NCBI RefSeq assembly: GCF_013371215.1
Contig: NZ_JABWMH010000005.1
Span: forward strand, 1-64,000
Direction: 5' to 3'
Source: Parasphingorhabdus flavimaris
GTDB taxonomy: Bacteria > Pseudomonadota > Alphaproteobacteria > Sphingomonadales > Sphingomonadaceae
Length of the DNA: 64,000 nt
Part shown: piece by piece, positions 38,652 through 59,331 of the stretch
How the letters are laid out: each line of letters opens with the position of its first letter
Position numbering within the stretch: the first letter of the stretch is position 1
Program-made: the position numbers and the translations under genes
Notes under the pieces: generated by a model
Database searches by the model: none
Seen by the model: the letters and a program-made list of their open reading frames with translations, nothing else
What the model was told of the DNA's origin: nothing

Positions 38652-38747
38652 CCCGTTCGTGCTGAGCCTGTCGAAGCACCTTGGCCCTCGCAACACCGAC
38701 AAAGCAATAGCCCGGAAAGGCCCTTCGACAGGCTCAGGGCGAACGGT
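38652..38747. repeat. intergenic palindromic repeat, copy 1
   Basis: The left arm starts CGTTCGTGCTGAGCCTGTCG and the right arm ends with its near-complement (CTTCGACAGGCTCAGGGCGAACGG). The arms are separated by about 45 bases and can form a long hairpin. Two further copies occur in this window. Such elements behave as REP-like sequences in sphingomonads and often lie at gene ends. Here it separates the dienelactone hydrolase and ispG genes. Confidence 0.8.
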
Positions 38748-44960: not shown

Positions 44961-45031
44961 CGTTAGTGGTGAGCCTGTCGAACCACGCCTCCGGGACGAG
45001 AAGCACCCTTCGACAAGCTCAGGGCTAACGG
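44961..45031. repeat. intergenic palindromic repeat, copy 2
   Basis: CGTTAGTGGTGAGCCTGTCG on the left and CTTCGACAAGCTCAGGGCTAACGG on the right repeat the element at 38652-38747 with compensating changes (TTAG with CTAA), which supports conservation of the hairpin rather than of the bases. It lies between the convergent M20 and haloalkane dehalogenase genes, where it could stop transcription from both sides. Confidence 0.78.
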
Positions 45032-51962: not shown

Positions 51963-52811
51963 CTATTCGGGTCTCTCCGCCAGCAAAGCGCGGACAAGAG
52001 GCTGGAGATTTTCGTCGTAGCGGGCGAGCAGGACATGCTCTTCGGCGGTCTCGAAATGGCTGATCAACTGGCGGCCGTTCCAGTAATGCAAGGCGATCGA
52101 CGGCGGATCGGCGACGATCATGTTGCGACCGTCGGGATGGTCCGGATCGATCGGGTTGAGGTCCAGCGCCACTTGCGGCGCGGTCGAGGCGCAGATCGCC
52201 AGGCTGATGTCCCGCCACCAGGTCGAGATATTGCGGTGAAGGTGGCCGGTGATCATGCCCTTGACATTGGGATGGCCGGCGACCGTGTCGGCCAGCCGCG
52301 ACACCCATGGCTCGTCGGGATGGGTGTTCATCCAGTCGATGCCGCTTTCCACCGGCGGATGGTGGAGGATCAGGATCGTCGGCTTGTCCTTGTTTTCGGC
52401 CAGCCGGTCGGCCAGCCATCGGGCCCGGACCTCGCAAAAGGCCCCGCCATGCCTGCCCTCTTCCAGCGTATCGAGGAACAGCAGGCGCAATTCCGGCGTG
52501 TCGACTTCATATTGGACAAAGCCGTCGACGGTCGGGACATCGGGAAACTGCCTGGAAAATGGTGCCCGCAAATCGTGATTGCCGAGACACATGTAGACCG
52601 GAAAAGGTACGGCTGACAGCGCGGATTCAAGCCGCCGGTAGCTTTCCTGATCGCCGCGGTCGACCAGATCGCCGGTAGCCAGCAGAAAGTCGGGCTGCGG
52701 TTTCATGTCGCATATCGTCTTGATCGCCTGATCAAGCCGCTTGCGGTTGAATTCCGCTGGATTATCCGGGTCGAAACCGAGATGAATATCCGTGATCTGC
52801 GCCATTAGCAT
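51963..52811 (-). CDS. metallophosphoesterase, class III cyclic-nucleotide-phosphodiesterase-like (CpdA-like)
   Basis: A 282-residue calcineurin-fold protein. All five blocks of the di-metal site are present: QITDIHLG (N-terminus), ATGDLVDRGDQ (about 45-55), LGNHDLR (about 74-80), LILHHPPVESG (about 147-157) and GHLHRN (about 188-193). The arrangement resembles CpdA/Rv0805-type phosphodiesterases for cyclic nucleotides, but related enzymes act on other phosphodiesters. It lies 27 bases downstream of the FHA-decahaem gene on the same strand. The operon's first gene has two cyclic-nucleotide-binding domains, which makes control of that ligand an attractive idea. Confidence 0.82.
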   Translation of the reverse strand: MLMAQITDIHLGFDPDNPAEFNRKRLDQAIKTICDMKPQPDFLLATGDLVDRGDQESYRRLESALSAVPFPVYMCLGNHDLRAPFSRQFPDVPTVDGFVQYEVDTPELRLLFLDTLEEGRHGGAFCEVRARWLADRLAENKDKPTILILHHPPVESGIDWMNTHPDEPWVSRLADTVAGHPNVKGMITGHLHRNISTWWRDISLAICASTAPQVALDLNPIDPDHPDGRNMIVADPPSIALHYWNGRQLISHFETAEEHVLLARYDENLQPLVRALLAERPE

Positions 52812-52838
52812 GGGCGGTTTCCCCTATCTTCCTTGGCC

Positions 52839-54644
52839 CTAACGACCGGCAATCTGTTTCTCCGGCTTGACTTGCTTGTCTTTCTTTTGATCCCTGACCA
52901 TCCAGGGCGCGCCATCATCGGCGTGATAATCATGACACATGGCGCATGATGACGGTACGTCGGACGATTTCTGGAACTCCCCGCCATGACATTCGCGACA
53001 GGTCTTGATGCCCGGCAGCAGCAGGTCTTCCGCAGCTTTCGATGTGGTTGCATTGTGGCAGCTCGTGCAATCCTCGTCATTATGCGCGTCATGGCTGAAC
53101 CAGCCTTTTTCCATATAGCGATCGGTCTGGGTCACCGGCTTGATGCCATAATCGACCCGCCCGCGCGCGGTCGGCGGCGTGACGCCATGACAGTCGAAAC
53201 AGGCCCCGCCACGCGAGAATACCTGGTTGATTGCCAGATTGGCGCGGCTCGGACGGAATTGCACGGCGCGGGCATAGTCGCTGGCGACCCGCACTTCGTT
53301 ATTCTCGCCCGGACGCCGCCGTTTCATGCCGCCGAGATTGATCGGGCGGTTGGGGCGGCTGGAGCGATAATAGGCCCTGAGATCAGCCTGGACCATCGCC
53401 GGTTCGCCGTGCCGCAAGGTCCGGACCGTGCCGCCGATTTCGTCAAAGGCGAGACTGTGGCACATGCTGCAGTCTTCCTTCATGTCGACCGGCTCGAAGC
53501 GCACGCCCTTGGGATCGACCGTGTGGCAATCCTTGCAGGCCAGCGCCGAACCAAAGCCGAATTCCTTCGACAGCCTCCGTCCCATTTGAGCGACACCGCC
53601 GGTCTTGGACAAATGCAGGTCATGCGGGAATTTCAGACCATTATATTCGGTCGGCTTCTGGTCGAGCGAGATGCGTTTGCGCTCCGGATTCTTGCCGCCC
53701 GGCGATACCAGAACGGCAGGCCGGAACTGCGGGTGTTCGATCCCGAAGTCCGATGCGTTCTCGAGTTTTGTATCGGTCAAACGTTCATCCATCCCATTGT
53801 GGCAATCCGCACAGAATTTTTGCGCAGTCGGTTGCATAGCACCGCCACCTTCATGCTCGCTGTGACATTCGACACACCTGCCCGGTGGCTTGTTGAAAGC
53901 CGAGGCAAAAGCGGCCCCGATTTTCTCCAGCCCCTCCGGCCCGCCGCGCGCGGTCAGCAACCGTGGTTTCGCGGCATGATCATGGGCGTCGTCTTCATGG
54001 CAAGTCAGGCAGGTATTGTCGGTGACGGTGACGAAAGCATCGACATGACAGGCCTGACAATCCTTTTCGAGCCCGTGGTGGGCCTTGCTCAAGGCGCCGG
54101 TCGACCACATGGTGTCGGCGTGGAACTGGTCGGGCCGTTCCTCGACACCGCGCCAGGTCGCCCAGGTGTAGATCGGCCAGACCAGAAATGCAGCCAGTAC
54201 CAGGGCGATAAAGCCCCAGGCCGTCATTCGCTTGCCCGGGAGCAAGCCCTTGAGCGTATAGAGCGTGGATTCGCTGCGCGTCTCGGCGGAATCGGACAGG
54301 GCCTCGACCCGCTTGACGGTGAGGACAATATCGTCGCCCTCTTCGCCGACGATGATGACATGCCCGCCAAAGCCCAGCTCCGCCCCGGCCGCCGGATCGA
54401 TGGTGACGGAAATCCGCTGCTTGCCATCGAGAGTGAAATTCTGGCCCGACGTGCTTTCGACGATGATCTGGCCGTCATCACGCTTGCTGATGACGGCATG
54501 GTCAGGATTGACCGCAAGATCGGGCAGATGGATCGGGTTGGTGGTGCTGCGACCGATGCCGATTTCGTTGGTCTGGAACGGATTGGACCGGATGATCTCC
54601 CGTCCGTCGGCGGTGGTCGCGATCTGGCGTACTATGAAGGTCAT
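52839..54644 (-). CDS. FHA domain fused to a membrane-anchored decahaem c-type cytochrome
   Basis: A 601-residue protein of striking design. The N-terminal FHA fold (about residues 22-100) has GIGRSTTNPIHLPD and NPDHAVISK, matching the GR...S/N..H phosphothreonine-binding pattern. One transmembrane helix follows (TAWGFIALVLAAFLVWPIYT, 141-160). The remainder is periplasmic with ten CxxCH sites: CQACH (196-200), CLTCH (212-216), CVECH, CADCH, CKDCH, CSMCH, CFDCH, CTSCH, CRECH and CAMCH. Extra His residues could be distal ligands. The topology places FHA in the cytosol and the haems outside. It should be an electron wire whose activity or assembly depends on phosphorylated partners. Lies 15 bases downstream of the cytochrome-b-like gene. 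Confidence 0.85.
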   Translation of the reverse strand: MTFIVRQIATTADGREIIRSNPFQTNEIGIGRSTTNPIHLPDLAVNPDHAVISKRDDGQIIVESTSGQNFTLDGKQRISVTIDPAAGAELGFGGHVIIVGEEGDDIVLTVKRVEALSDSAETRSESTLYTLKGLLPGKRMTAWGFIALVLAAFLVWPIYTWATWRGVEERPDQFHADTMWSTGALSKAHHGLEKDCQACHVDAFVTVTDNTCLTCHEDDAHDHAAKPRLLTARGGPEGLEKIGAAFASAFNKPPGRCVECHSEHEGGGAMQPTAQKFCADCHNGMDERLTDTKLENASDFGIEHPQFRPAVLVSPGGKNPERKRISLDQKPTEYNGLKFPHDLHLSKTGGVAQMGRRLSKEFGFGSALACKDCHTVDPKGVRFEPVDMKEDCSMCHSLAFDEIGGTVRTLRHGEPAMVQADLRAYYRSSRPNRPINLGGMKRRRPGENNEVRVASDYARAVQFRPSRANLAINQVFSRGGACFDCHGVTPPTARGRVDYGIKPVTQTDRYMEKGWFSHDAHNDEDCTSCHNATTSKAAEDLLLPGIKTCRECHGGEFQKSSDVPSSCAMCHDYHADDGAPWMVRDQKKDKQVKPEKQIAGR

Positions 54645-54659
54645 TTTTGGCTCTCCATC

Positions 54660-55541
54660 CTACCAGTAAAAGAATACGCTGATGATATGCGCGGTGAGCG
54701 AGGCGATCAGAGCGAAGGTCATCGGGACATGGACGAACAGCCAGACTTGCAGCATCGCCTTGAGCTTGAGATGGCGCCGGACCCGGGCCAGGGTCGCCTC
54801 CTTTTTCTCGAGCAGCGCATCGACCTTGTCGAGCGGATCATCGCCGCCCATTTTCGGCTGATAGGCCCGTTCGCGGCGCAAATCTGCCTGCGCCTGCCGG
54901 GTAGCACAATCGGGATAGCGACCGGATATCCGCTGGAAAAATCCGCCGCCAAACGGATCCTGTTCGAGCGACTGGAGCACCAGAGCGGCATGTTCTCCGG
55001 ACAGCGGCTGCGCTGCTTCATGCAATTGCCGGTCGAGTGAACGCAGATTCTCGAGCATCTCGGTCTCGGTCATCTCGTCACGATTGTCGGACAGCGCCTT
55101 AGGGATGGTGGCGTAGAAATAAATGCCGACAATGCCCGAAATGATCACGATCATCATGAAGACATAAGCGGCGGTGTGGATGTTCCAGCCGAGCTGGAAC
55201 CCGGTGTGCAGCGTGCCGATCACGATCAGGCTGAGCCCGAGATAGATATGCGCCGAGGTCCAGGCCTTGAGCGACCACTGGCCCGGCGTCATGGCGCGCT
55301 TGCGCACACCCAGCATGGTCAGCCACAGGATCAGCAGCGCGCCAATCGTTCCCAGCGTATAGCCGTACCAGCTGCCGCCATTGTGGCGCGGCGACACGTC
55401 GATGAACAGATAGCTGACGATGCAGATCAGCATGATCGCCGACGAAATCTTCAGCCAGCGGAAACCGGCGTGCTTGAGGAAGCCGTCGTGCATGGCGACC
55501 TTCTTGCGCCCGGCCTGTCCGGTGATGGCGGTGCTGGCCAT
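54660..55541 (-). CDS. b-type-cytochrome-like inner-membrane protein
   Basis: A 293-residue protein with about five helices. Helix His residues suited to bis-His haem b are H98 (TSAHIYLGL), H112 (TLHTGF) and H122 (NIHTAAY), plus H271 and H285 in the last helix (HVPMTFALIASLTAHII). A long cytosolic loop (about 150-255) is acidic and helical with no cofactor motif. It resembles no named cytochrome b that I can cite, but its place between a ferredoxin-bearing flavoprotein and a decahaem cytochrome strongly suggests it carries electrons across the membrane, possibly via the quinone pool. Confidence 0.7.
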   Translation of the reverse strand: MASTAITGQAGRKKVAMHDGFLKHAGFRWLKISSAIMLICIVSYLFIDVSPRHNGGSWYGYTLGTIGALLILWLTMLGVRKRAMTPGQWSLKAWTSAHIYLGLSLIVIGTLHTGFQLGWNIHTAAYVFMMIVIISGIVGIYFYATIPKALSDNRDEMTETEMLENLRSLDRQLHEAAQPLSGEHAALVLQSLEQDPFGGGFFQRISGRYPDCATRQAQADLRRERAYQPKMGGDDPLDKVDALLEKKEATLARVRRHLKLKAMLQVWLFVHVPMTFALIASLTAHIISVFFYW

Positions 55542-55584
55542 TATATGGTCCCCCCGTTGGCTGCGGGATCGGTGGCCAGTTTTG

Positions 55585-55653
55585 CCGTTCGTGCTGAGCT
55601 TGTCGAAGCACCGCGTCTTGTCATCTGTCCTTCGACAAGCTCAGGACGAACGG
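55585..55653. repeat. intergenic palindromic repeat, copy 3
   Basis: CCGTTCGTGCTGAGCTTGTCG and CTTCGACAAGCTCAGGACGAACGG form the same hairpin as copies 1 and 2. It lies inside the redox gene cluster, between the 816-residue flavoprotein gene and the cytochrome-b-like gene. There it could reduce read-through or protect the upstream mRNA, giving unequal expression of the two parts. Confidence 0.8.
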
Positions 55654-55674
55654 GGAATAGCCAAACCAACAACC

Positions 55675-58125
55675 TCACACCTCTTCCCCTTCCAGCTTGG
55701 AGACGGTCAGGAATTCTTCCGGCGCCACGCGGATGGCCGCGCCGGTCGGGCAAGCCCGGACGCAGGCGGGGCCGCCCTTGATCCCGGCGCACATGTCGCA
55801 TTTGATCGCTTTCTTGGGCTTTTCGACTGCAGGATCGCTGTGCTCGGCGGACCATTGCTTGTCGGGTTCGCCGGGCCCCGGACCGAAACCGAACAGCAAC
55901 CAGTTCAATATGCCCGGCTTCTTCGGCGGAACCTTGTCCATCCGGATCACGCCATAAGGGCAATAGCGCTGGCAATTGCCGCAGCCGATGCAGCTGTCGT
56001 CGATGAATACTTCGCCATCGGGACCGCGGTGGATGGCGTCGGGCGGGCAGTCGGACATGCAGTGCGGATGTTCGCAGTGCCGACAGCTGGTCGGCACGTG
56101 GAGATGGGCATAGGTGCGCCCGGCCTCGCGATCGAGACGCGACAGGCCTTCATGGCTGTCGGCGCAGGCCTTCTCGCAATTGTCACAGCCGACGCAGAGA
56201 TTCTCGTCGATCAGCAGCACGTCGGTGGCTTCGCCGATACCATTGTCGACGAGGAAATTGGCAATCCCCGAATACATGTCGACAACACCTGAGAAACTGT
56301 CCTTCTTCGCTTCGACGAAGGCGTTGATATCCTGCCGCGCGGCCATTTCCTTCTTCGCCTTGCGCATCAGGTCGGGATGGGCGTCGAGGACTTTCTTGAA
56401 CGCATCGCCATTGATCTTGATGACTTCCGACTTGATCGCGGCCTTGACCGTCGCGGTGCGATAGCCACCGGCGATCAGCGTCATTTCCCCGACATAGGAA
56501 CCGGCCGGCAGATAGGACAGGAACACCGGCTTGCCGCCGATTTCCTTCTCGACCACCATCGAACCGACGCGAATGACGTAAATGTCGTTGCCGTCCCCGC
56601 CTTCCTCGATGATCGTCTCGCCGGCACGGACGTTGACGATCTCGCTGGATTCGACGACTTCGGCAATATCTTCCTTGGTCAGGCCCGATCCGAACATCTG
56701 CAGCAATTGGCGCTCGGTCGAAATGCGGGTGATGGCGCGTTTTGCGGCGGGTACCGACGCTTGCAATTTCAGCGCGGCGGTGCGCGAGATTTCGACCACG
56801 ACCACGTCTTCGGCGGCCTTGATCGTCGCCCCGCGGCGGCGTCCGGAAATCAGACCGACTTCGCCGAAGATCGAACCCTGTTCGATCGGCACGGTGATCG
56901 AGGGATCGTCGGGGTTGATCTCCACTGCGACCGAGCCCTCGGCTATGGCAAAAAGCGAGCTTCCCGGATCGTTTTTCTCGAAAATCACCTCACCGCGGCG
57001 ATAGCTTTGCGGCTCGCTGTCGAGCATGAATTCGCGCATCTGCAGCGGCGACAGGTCGTTGAGGATGGTGACGTTGGAGCGGAAAAATTCCAGCCATTCG
57101 TCGACCGAGCGGCGTTTTGGCAGGCTGGCAAATTTGGCTTCGAGTATCGGTTCGTCGGCAGGTTTCAGGTCGGTGTTGCCGTTGATGAACTCGATAACAT
57201 CATAGCCCTGGTTCATGCAGTGCTTGATCAGCGGATAGCCGGCGAGCGCGCCGATGACATAGATGCCCTTCTTGGTGCTTTCGAATGCGGGCGACAATTT
57301 GGGATAGGCCTCGCGATCATCGCTGGTAAACTCGATGCCGCATTCCTCGACAAATTTGCGCGGCGGCGCGCTGCCCATGCGCGCGATGATCCGGTCGCAC
57401 TTGATCGTCTCTTGCCCGTCGCGGGTTTCCAGCACCAGTTCGCCGTCCCTGACCTCGGCCGGTGTGGTCTCGTTGCGGATCATCACCTTGCCCTGCTCGC
57501 CCGCTTCCATCAGCAGCTTCACATTGGCTTTCTTGGCCCGGGCAAATTCCGCCGAGCGGTTGAGAATGGTGACGACATTATTCTGCGCCGCATCGGCGGC
57601 GAGGCCGAGCGCATTCTCGATACCGGCGTCGCCCGAACCGATTACCGTGATATGCTCGTCATAATATTCGCCGGGATCGTCGAGCTGATATTGTACCAGC
57701 TTGTTGTCACCGCCGGGGCAGCGCATCAGATTGGGATTGCCCTGGGTACCGATCGCCATGACGATCGTTTCGGCCTGCACCGTATCGCCGTTTTTCAGGC
57801 TGATGGTGAAATTGCCTTCGTCGCCTTCGATCTTCACCGGTTCGGCATTATACATGACATTGACGCCGCGCTCGGCGGTCTGCTCGTCCCAGGTGCCGAG
57901 TATCGCCTCGCGCTTGCCCGCGTCGAAATCCATGTCCGAGCGCAACACCAGCTGGCTCGGCGTCGCCATGACATGCTTGCCCTTCTGATATTTGTAGATG
58001 GTATCGGAGAGATGGTCGGTCTTTTCGAGCAGCACGTGTTTCAGCTTCAGCTGGGCAGCGCGTCCGGCAGCGCTCATCCCCGCCGGTCCGGACCCGACAA
58101 TCACTACTCGAAATTTGTCCGCCAC
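55675..58125 (-). CDS. FAD/NAD(P)H oxidoreductase fused to two cyclic-nucleotide-binding domains and a four-cluster ferredoxin
   Basis: An 816-residue three-part protein starting at GTG 58125. Residues 1-330 form a pyridine-nucleotide oxidoreductase: FAD motif VGSGPAGMSAAG (10-21), NAD(P) motif VIGSGDAGIENALG (about 159-172) and a final GIYVIGALAG. Residues of about 355-475 and 480-600 are two cNMP-binding domains; both keep the phosphate cassette (SIFGEVGL...RRGATIK and SYVGEMTL...YRTATVK). Residues of about 640-800 hold four cysteine clusters: CVGCDNCEKAC, CRHCEHPHCMSDCP, CIGCGNCQRYCP and CDMCAG...CVRACP, as in DmsB/NrfC-type subunits. No CxxC redox disulfide is seen in the flavin part. Likely a cytosolic, ligand-gated electron input module. 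Confidence 0.88.
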   Translation of the reverse strand: MADKFRVVIVGSGPAGMSAAGRAAQLKLKHVLLEKTDHLSDTIYKYQKGKHVMATPSQLVLRSDMDFDAGKREAILGTWDEQTAERGVNVMYNAEPVKIEGDEGNFTISLKNGDTVQAETIVMAIGTQGNPNLMRCPGGDNKLVQYQLDDPGEYYDEHITVIGSGDAGIENALGLAADAAQNNVVTILNRSAEFARAKKANVKLLMEAGEQGKVMIRNETTPAEVRDGELVLETRDGQETIKCDRIIARMGSAPPRKFVEECGIEFTSDDREAYPKLSPAFESTKKGIYVIGALAGYPLIKHCMNQGYDVIEFINGNTDLKPADEPILEAKFASLPKRRSVDEWLEFFRSNVTILNDLSPLQMREFMLDSEPQSYRRGEVIFEKNDPGSSLFAIAEGSVAVEINPDDPSITVPIEQGSIFGEVGLISGRRRGATIKAAEDVVVVEISRTAALKLQASVPAAKRAITRISTERQLLQMFGSGLTKEDIAEVVESSEIVNVRAGETIIEEGGDGNDIYVIRVGSMVVEKEIGGKPVFLSYLPAGSYVGEMTLIAGGYRTATVKAAIKSEVIKINGDAFKKVLDAHPDLMRKAKKEMAARQDINAFVEAKKDSFSGVVDMYSGIANFLVDNGIGEATDVLLIDENLCVGCDNCEKACADSHEGLSRLDREAGRTYAHLHVPTSCRHCEHPHCMSDCPPDAIHRGPDGEVFIDDSCIGCGNCQRYCPYGVIRMDKVPPKKPGILNWLLFGFGPGPGEPDKQWSAEHSDPAVEKPKKAIKCDMCAGIKGGPACVRACPTGAAIRVAPEEFLTVSKLEGEEV

Positions 58126-58368: not shown

Positions 58369-59331
58369 ATGGCAGAAACTGGTTCATCGATGAACGTCAA
58401 CCGTATCGCTCTGATAATAGCGGCTTTACTCGCGCTCGGCGCGATCGCCGTCCAGGTCTATCGCAGCATGAACGACGGTTCGGGCGAGGACATGACGCTC
58501 GCCGGCAGCACGGGCGAAGGCGAGGAAGCGCCAAGCGTCGGTGAAGTGATCGCCGGGCTGGAAAAGAAGCTGCAGGAAAGCCCCGATGACGCCGAAAGCT
58601 GGCGGATGCTGGGGTGGAGCTATTTCGAGACCGGCAAATTCCCCGAATCGGCGACCGCGATGAAACGGGCAACCACGCTTGATCCGGACAATCCCGAATA
58701 TTGGTCGATGCTGGGCGAGGCCCTGGTCATGTCGAGCGACGGGCAGCAGGTACCGGCTGATGCGGCCCAGGCCTTTCGCAATGCCCTGAAACACGATCCA
58801 AAGGATCCGCGCGCGCGTTATTTTCTGGCGGTCCAGAAGGACATTTCCGGCGACCATAGAGGCGCGATCGATGACTGGTTCACCCTGCTCGAAGACACGC
58901 CCGCCGACGCCCCTTATGCCGCCGATATCCGCCGGGTGATCGGGCAGGTCGCCGAGAATGAAGGAATTGATGTTGCCGCCCGCCTCGCCAAGGCAGCACC
59001 GGCCGCGCCAACCGGCGGCATTAGCACCAGCGGCCCCGCCGTCGCCACCGCCGCGATTCCCGGCCCCAGCCGCCAGCAGATGAAGGAAGCAGCCGCCCTG
59101 CCCGCCGGTCAGCAGGAAGCCATGATCGCGGGCATGGTGGACGGTCTGGACAAACGCCTGACGGCCAATCCCAATGACGCCAATGGCTGGATCATGCTGA
59201 TCCGCAGCCGCATGCAACTGGGCCAGACGGTTCAGGCCAAACAGGCGCTGGAGCGCGGCTTGAAAGCGTTCAGGAATGACGGAGCCGAAGCGAAGCGCAT
59301 CCGGGAAGCGGCAGCGGCTCTGGGTGTTTAG
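58369..59331 (+). CDS. TPR protein, cytochrome c biogenesis CcmI/CycH-like
   Basis: A 320-residue protein with one N-terminal helix (IALIIAALLALGAIAVQVY, about 13-31) and TPR units in the periplasmic part (WRMLGWSYFETGKFPESATAMKRA, about 83-106, then further repeats). GEVIAGLEKKLQESPDDAESW matches the start of CcmI/CycH TPR domains, which hand apocytochrome to the haem lyase. It is divergent from the cluster encoding a decahaem cytochrome, consistent with that role, but it lacks the second N-terminal helix of classical CcmI and no other ccm genes adjoin. The 243-base spacer upstream should hold divergent promoters. Confidence 0.7.
   Translation: MAETGSSMNVNRIALIIAALLALGAIAVQVYRSMNDGSGEDMTLAGSTGEGEEAPSVGEVIAGLEKKLQESPDDAESWRMLGWSYFETGKFPESATAMKRATTLDPDNPEYWSMLGEALVMSSDGQQVPADAAQAFRNALKHDPKDPRARYFLAVQKDISGDHRGAIDDWFTLLEDTPADAPYAADIRRVIGQVAENEGIDVAARLAKAAPAAPTGGISTSGPAVATAAIPGPSRQQMKEAAALPAGQQEAMIAGMVDGLDKRLTANPNDANGWIMLIRSRMQLGQTVQAKQALERGLKAFRNDGAEAKRIREAAAALGV

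Follow-up and report, generated by a model that had tools for sequence, protein, structure and literature searches.

The window analysed here, a 64,000-nucleotide stretch of Parasphingorhabdus flavimaris (contig NZ_JABWMH010000005.1, positions 1 to 64,000 of the forward strand), carries on its minus strand a cluster of four genes that, transcribed from position 58125 down to 51963, encode a flavoprotein, a membrane protein, a multihaem cytochrome and a phosphoesterase (Table 1). From sequence comparisons, we regard it as probable, with much room for doubt, that these genes contribute to a conduit that is driven by NAD(P)H, regulated by cyclic nucleotides and leads electrons across the envelope to the cell surface. 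The initial annotation, which proposed a signal-gated transmembrane electron conduit, missed the outer-membrane half of this system, which is unlinked to the cluster in the species' own genome.

The make-up first given for the cluster, namely a flavoprotein with two cyclic-nucleotide-binding (cNMP) domains and four Fe-S clusters, a b-haem-like membrane protein, a cytochrome joining an FHA domain to ten haems, and a phosphoesterase, is borne out by domain scans and by invariant ligands. Conservation was judged from relatives at 119 loci aligned with the window's own proteins and covering at least 75% of the query (window included, 111 flavoproteins, 120 membrane proteins, 114 cytochromes and 79 phosphoesterases; some species may recur among the loci). 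The flavoprotein matches the pyridine-nucleotide-disulphide oxidoreductase domain (E 7.9e-30) and, in two stretches, the cNMP domain (E 1.5e-33), and its C-terminus is DmsB/NrfC-like, with Fer4 domains whose 16 cysteines offer room for four [4Fe-4S] clusters and are all kept in 111 of 111 sequences. The PF13247 Fe-S match (E 4.7e-11) is in this protein, joined to the flavin and cNMP domains, and its gene lies upstream of that for the membrane protein. The glycines of the FAD and NAD(P) motifs are kept in 110 of 111 flavoproteins (one gap), the exception being G168 (91 G, 19 A). Of the named models YpdA fits this protein best (121 bits, cut-off 340), and the protein's N-terminal half, with single cysteines at 136, 243, 262 and 303, contains no CXXC.

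In the membrane protein, W94, H98, H112, H122, G136, G139, W267, H271 and H285 are invariant in all 120 sequences, and the serine of an SGxxG motif, S135, is present in 116 and replaced by T in 4. Among 21 membrane proteins of all the types described below, the sole invariant histidines are H98, H112, H271 and H285, which lie two to a helix with both pairs 14 positions apart, the arrangement of a dihaem cytochrome b. If the helices are oriented as their charge suggests, H98/H271 would hold a cytosolic-side b haem and H112/H285 a periplasmic-side one. The match to Ni_hydr_CYTB (cytochrome b561) is below threshold (E 5.1e-4, 20.3 bits against a cut-off of 30.1), PF01794 (NADPH oxidase/ferric reductase) gives no match at E up to 0.1, and a PDB search with the membrane-protein profile returned 14 matches, at E 0.12 or worse, that resemble chance coiled-coil matches. 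Single-sequence PDB searches gave just weak c-type cytochrome matches. In the cytochrome, nine CXXCH motifs are kept in 114 of 114 relatives and the tenth in 111 (a gap in 3), and the FHA domain scores 21.6 bits at a cut-off of 20.7. The charge beside the transmembrane (TM) helix, +2 before it and -1 after it, fits an FHA domain in the cytosol and c haems in the periplasm, the topology that we adopt. The named models that best describe the phosphoesterase are SpdA (140.9 bits, cut-off 400) and CpdA (88.1 bits, cut-off 225), both below cut-off; the protein belongs to the same superfamily, with cyclic nucleotides as putative substrates.

Every step of a path from NAD(P)H to the periplasm is thus encoded, as first claimed, by domains and ligands that are kept in the aligned relatives. 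In the path proposed, NAD(P)H would reduce the FAD of the flavoprotein, and electrons would run by way of the four [4Fe-4S] clusters first to the b haem on the cytosolic side and then to that on the periplasmic side. They would next enter the FHA-anchored cytochrome with its ten c haems, cross the periplasm and exit through an outer module composed of a putative porin, a tetrahaem cytochrome and a decahaem protein with LVIVD repeats. The binding of cAMP or cGMP to the two cNMP domains would alter the rate, and in Sphingomonadales a co-transcribed phosphodiesterase would trim the signal locally. Outward flow is suggested because NAD(P)H has a low potential and a flavoprotein is present; as with this direction, we infer the occupancy of the cofactor sites, surface exposure, the regulation and its sign, and the acceptor.

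A Glu and an Arg of the phosphate-binding cassette mark cAMP/cGMP-binding domains, and both pairs are kept in the flavoprotein (E422, R431 and R556 in 111 of 111, E547 in 110 of 111), so that both cNMP domains, with their cassettes intact, are likely cAMP/cGMP-binding sites and the cyclic-nucleotide input proposed at the outset is upheld at this level. Gating by cAMP or cGMP is suggested by these cassettes together with the three class III cyclase domains encoded in the genome, which also encodes CcmH and one Ser/Thr kinase. One class III cyclase domain lies at G000:C1 324906-325418 (locus L196), about 19 kb from the operon of the outer module. A second proposed input, phosphothreonine, fared less well. 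Phosphothreonine-binding FHA domains usually have, besides an Arg and further phosphopeptide-contacting residues, a Ser at a canonical position; in the cytochrome the Gly-Arg (R32) is kept in 114 of 114 sequences and H49 in 99, while the commonest residues at the Ser position are N (37), E (17), D (15), A (11), T (8) and L (7). Because this position is mostly not Ser, the FHA domain may instead be a docking domain.

The genes of the inner core are inherited together. In a sample of 385 genomes of the window's class, 60 have a match to the membrane protein, of which 37 (the window's own genome included) are at E <1e-50 and are here called type 1, the remaining 23 being weak matches (E 1.4e-14 to 5.3e-4). 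Apart from the window's own genome there are 36 of type 1, of which all but G274 were examined; at these 35 loci the cytochrome gene adjoins that of the membrane protein in 35 of 35 and the flavoprotein gene in 31 of 35. A scan of titled genomes yielded at least 580 relatives, and among the best 80 loci, selected by the membrane protein, the flavoprotein is present in 79, the cytochrome in 78 and the phosphoesterase in 75, and every missing gene would fall past a contig end. By name, 75 of these 80 relatives are Sphingomonadales and five are broader. The closest among the matches listed are two Sphingomonadales metagenome-assembled genomes (96% and 95%), Sphingorhabdus sp. 109 (93%) and Parasphingorhabdus marina (90%), and the named carriers listed also include isolates of Sphingopyxis, Novosphingobium, Sphingobium and Blastomonas, which would belong to the family sampled below. 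The flavoprotein, membrane-protein and cytochrome genes are co-conserved, which is the check that the initial annotation had set for the cluster. For the phosphoesterase this holds in part: it is a regular member of the Sphingomonadales-type loci, and in the class-locus maps it is clustered only in loci of the window's own family (at L190, in a class genome outside the family, a 38% homologue lies about 5 kb downstream).

The flavoprotein and membrane-protein genes are separated by a median of -1 nucleotides over 72 named loci, and by 133 in the window. In a genus that is not of this class, they form one open frame in two genomes (G669 and G564, loci L186 and L187), of 1125 and 1120 amino acids, in which the Rossmann motif, both cNMP cassettes, the Fe-S motifs and both W-x3-H-x13-H motifs are all present. 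The fusion was probably a single event, and it is direct evidence that the two proteins function as a unit.

At many class loci, genes for an HbpS-like protein, a barrel-like protein and a protein with ten CXXCH motifs and LVIVD repeats lie downstream of the cytochrome gene, and at several (e.g. L066 and L080) the inner and outer sets stand in one co-directional run. In the window's own genome, these genes and that of a tetrahaem cytochrome form a tight run on another contig (G000:C1, about 296.3-306.0 kb), with the tetrahaem gene first, then the HbpS-like, barrel-like and decahaem LVIVD genes. The barrel is putatively placed in the outer membrane on account of a borderline Alginate_exp match in one relative (25.2 bits, cut-off 25.2), an aromatic C-terminus and its operon context. 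In the HbpS-like protein of locus L086 (14542-16542), four PF03928 stretches are matched, and its start resembles, by eye, a lipoprotein signal.

Co-occurrence of the two modules was counted with strong matches, in class, family and phylum samples that overlap. Weak matches were excluded: for the membrane protein, 4 of 62 genomes of the family and 16 of 31 of the phylum; for the decahaem, 6 of 35 genomes of the class and 8 of 19 of the phylum. In the class, each of the 29 genomes with a strong decahaem match (E <1e-60) is also one of the 37 of type 1 (Fisher p 1e-36, shared ancestry ignored). Among 159 genomes of the family, 58 have the membrane protein, 59 the decahaem protein and 58 both (p 4e-43, with the same disregard of ancestry), the odd genome with the decahaem only (G405) being 67% complete; in 26 of the 58 the two genes are within 15 kb of each other, and in the other 32 they lie at a greater distance or on separate contigs. 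In the phylum sample of 398 genomes, all 11 strong-decahaem genomes belong to the 15 whose membrane-protein match is strong, and the family supplies 8 of these 11.

Several points weigh against a conduit to the surface. The Fisher p-values take no account of shared ancestry, an objection partly answered by four genera (g4, g310, g353 and g354; genera were not systematically surveyed), each of which includes a genome with both modules and a genome with neither. The LVIVD decahaem was not found in 8 of the 37 class type-1 genomes, nor in 4 of the 15 genomes of the phylum sample, in one of which (G670) the contig stops just past the barrel gene. The barrel has no Pfam match in the window's own genome and no PDB relative in a profile search at E up to 1, a limit at which the profile of the outer decahaem likewise found no PDB match. 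In the membrane protein, hydropathy gives four peaks above the cut-off, the helix at about 96-116, with H98 and H112, falling below it; this fifth helix was assigned by its likeness to the five-helix proteins described in the main text of He et al. 2017 (PMC5566968). At 4 of the 35 class type-1 loci there is no adjacent flavoprotein gene, the rest of those genomes not having been searched: two are in one genus (G351, L027/L077; G178, L030/L071) and two in one family, with a tetrahaem gene in its place (G224, L025, where the upstream sequence covers 1.5 kb only; G120, L073). Finally, the Sphingomonadales are mostly aerobes and have no obvious need of an extracellular acceptor.

The genomes that lack the decahaem bear on a rival in which the inner module, in the manner of Hmc/Tmc, works for a periplasmic reductase or for redox poise in the periplasm, the outer module being a separate trait that is co-inherited. 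The eight class genomes suit this reading, as does the best named model for the cytochrome, HmcA (41 bits, cut-off 400). Against it stands the decahaem in 58 of 58 membrane-protein genomes of the family, even if mostly at a distance, along with the four mixed genera and the co-directional runs, and we hold it to be improbable. Four of the eight genomes (L056, L057, L060 and L073) carry beside the core a pentahaem gene and a porin-like gene of the kind found with the weakly matching membrane proteins, so that the inner core combines with one of at least two outer modules. Of the acceptors first suggested (extracellular, a periplasmic reductase or quinone), the extracellular one is now the likeliest, given the partner genes elsewhere in the genome.

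The weak matches define a second type of the system. Of the 23 weak class genomes 20 were examined (G221, G290 and G364 were left out), and 17 of the 20 loci carry a gene for a cNMP and Fe-S protein; the other three, L033, L039 and L192, are without the cluster. L033 (2788-3639) and L039 (4304-5158) do encode proteins distantly related to the membrane protein, with the same four histidines, and no cNMP/Fe-S gene or decahaem gene is adjacent. The 17 type-2 proteins, of 540-603 amino acids, are too short for a Rossmann domain, and in the one scanned (L035) two cNMP stretches and Fer4 were found and no flavin domain. The type-2 cytochrome has ten CXXCH motifs at 16 of the 17 loci and six at L037, where a contig end cuts the gene; a scan of the L035 decahaem found no FHA domain. 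In this cytochrome (L035 6090-8402), a cysteine-rich N-terminal stretch stands in the place of the type-1 FHA domain. A full tetrahaem gene is present at 15 of the 17 loci, a pentahaem gene or its cut end at 14 and a porin-like gene at 13. A separate NAD(P)H reductase gene of another Pfam type (FAD_binding_6/NAD_binding_1/Fer2) is present at 13 of the 17. Both types thus have a capacity for NAD(P)H oxidation, type 1 within the fused protein and type 2 in a gene of its own, and this speaks for NAD(P)H as a partner, not for quinone alone.

By gene content and motifs, rather than by alignment with the paper's own sequences, we judge type 2 to be PCC4, a group whose Subgroup II clusters are predicted in the main text of He et al. 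2017 (PMC5566968) to encode 4-, 5- and 10-haem cytochromes, a porin, a PF13247 protein and redox proteins. The PCC4 membrane protein is described there with five TM helices, SGxxG on TM4 and W-x3-H-x13-H on TM3 and TM5, and the two W-x3-H-x13-H motifs and SGxxG are all present in the window's membrane protein, which is homologous to that of type 2 (hhalign E 7.1e-25). Both systems have a PF13247 Fe-S protein upstream and a ten-haem cytochrome downstream. The window type differs in its fused NAD(P)H/FAD domain, in the FHA domain on the decahaem cytochrome and in the decahaem LVIVD protein. The published description gives PCC4 no extracellular multihaem cytochrome, and the LVIVD decahaem is a putative surface protein; PCC4 has 4, 5 and 10 haems in one cluster, the window 10 only and the outer locus 4 and 10, with no pentahaem found in the window cluster or the outer locus, the parts of the genome searched. 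Homology between the PCC4-type porin and the window-type barrel is undetectable (hhalign probability 3.5%). The words 'cyclic', 'FHA' and 'cNMP' have no match in the main text of that paper, whose Supplementary Figure 4, on domain architectures, may show cNMP domains. The claim of an undescribed system therefore needs dividing: a PCC4-like inner core had already been predicted, while new elements are the flavoprotein in its fused form, the domains for cyclic nucleotides and FHA, and the outer module. Literature searches within one library of papers, supplements excluded, found no publication on this gene combination.

PCC3 and PCC4 were modelled, for iron-oxidising bacteria, as passing electrons from an extracellular donor to the quinone pool, possibly with a quinone-active cytochrome b (PMC5566968, main text), and the window's system could likewise be read as an inward conduit, in which a donor such as Fe(II) or Mn(II) feeds the quinone pool through the outer module and the flavoprotein is a side branch or a maker of NAD(P)H. 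Against this stand a flavoprotein gene that adjoins, often overlaps and in two genomes is fused with that of the membrane protein, and established thermodynamics, by which NAD(P)+ reduction with Fe(II) or Mn(II) is strongly uphill at neutral pH; we give an inward conduit a small chance. An assimilatory surface reductase, in which NAD(P)H electrons would free iron at the surface and the HbpS-like protein would be the binder of haem or iron, is more doubtful still: the HbpS-like gene (PF03928) does accompany the outer module, yet such domains have many roles.

Other known systems share parts of the outward conduit that we prefer. Hmc, Tmc and Qrc, transmembrane complexes of sulfate reducers, also combine an Fe-S protein, a b-type membrane subunit and a multihaem c cytochrome at the inner membrane, whereas the window system has an NAD(P)H flavoprotein, cNMP and FHA domains and an outer-membrane partner, and no NrfD- or CCG-type gene is among its four. 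MtrCAB, MtoAB and OmbB-OmaB-OmcB pair a porin with multihaem cytochromes as a presumed outer-membrane wire; however, no solved structure matches the barrel or the outer decahaem by sequence profile, the MtrC/F-domain similarity of the latter is below threshold (29.8 bits, cut-off 30), and they are fed by quinol, while the window system would be fed by NAD(P)H. The outer decahaem also has a local similarity to ExtM, of a selenite/tellurite reduction operon (NCBIfam), of 65.3 bits, far under the cut-off of 800, its best stretch being 50 residues around haem motifs. NADPH oxidases and ferric reductases show the same layout from NAD(P)H through flavin to two b haems on two H-x13-H pairs, and unlike them the window system has Fe-S clusters between flavin and haem and c haems beyond.

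Divergent from the flavoprotein gene lies a TPR-repeat gene, which stands in this position at 58 of the best 80 titled loci (of at least 580), and at L063 the flavoprotein gene has a CcmI gene upstream of it; the TPR protein is possibly a haem-attachment factor for the conduit. Long antisense open reading frames over the genes (621, 684 and 984 amino acids, the last containing the TPR gene) were set aside as shadow frames. Promoter and terminator scans gave results at chance level. The palindrome in the gap between the flavoprotein and membrane-protein genes is a dispersed repeat and no part of the conduit. Copies of the repeat lie in the window at 55585-55653, 38653-38746 and 45008-45031, and its half-sites (24 nucleotides, up to 3 mismatches) number 5 in the window against a mean of 0 in 100 shuffles.

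Table 1. Genes and sequence elements of the window and of the outer locus in the same genome
Feature	Position	Strand	Length (amino acids)	Content
Flavoprotein	55675..58125	-	816	NAD(P)H/FAD domain at about 1-310; two cyclic-nucleotide-binding domains at about 345-600; four-cluster [4Fe-4S] C-terminus at about 637-800
Inner-membrane protein	54660..55541	-	293	Bis-His sites, predicted for two b haems
FHA-decahaem cytochrome	52839..54644	-	601	FHA domain, TM helix 140-158, ten CXXCH
Metallophosphatase	51963..52811	-	282	SpdA/CpdA-like; class III cyclic-nucleotide phosphodiesterase-like
TPR-repeat gene, divergent	58369..59331	+		Weakly NrfG-like (haem-lyase subunit), 31.5 bits, cut-off 306
Palindrome	55585..55653	.		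27-nucleotide arms; gap between flavoprotein and membrane-protein genes
Tetrahaem cytochrome	Outer locus		468	c554-like
HbpS-like protein	Outer locus		666	PF03928
Barrel-like protein	Outer locus		722	Putative outer-membrane porin
Decahaem LVIVD protein	Outer locus		1387	

A bolder thought, which we put forward as a long shot, is that the conduit may be the equivalent of an NADPH oxidase in aerobic bacteria, spanning two membranes and switched at its cytosolic end by cAMP or cGMP, and that it brings NAD(P)H electrons to the surface to turn O2 into superoxide or reduce metal oxides there. It would then be the first trans-envelope wire known to us with allosteric gating, and a candidate for the unidentified sources of extracellular superoxide in aerobic bacteria. 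According to PMC6414704, the enzyme behind extracellular superoxide was known in 2019, among marine bacteria, for one Roseobacter strain only; the taxa here differ.

Unlike its predicted relatives, for which the main text of PMC5566968 offers models with an extracellular donor and quinone, the window-type wire appears tied to NAD(P)H and has predicted cyclic-nucleotide sites on its cytosolic end, and at least one PCC4-like cluster (L035) also has cNMP domains, absent from the main text that proposed PCC4. The core of the conduit is present in 58 of the 159 sampled genomes of the window's family. If the proposed reading is true, electron export in aerobes would be a regulated and widespread trait.

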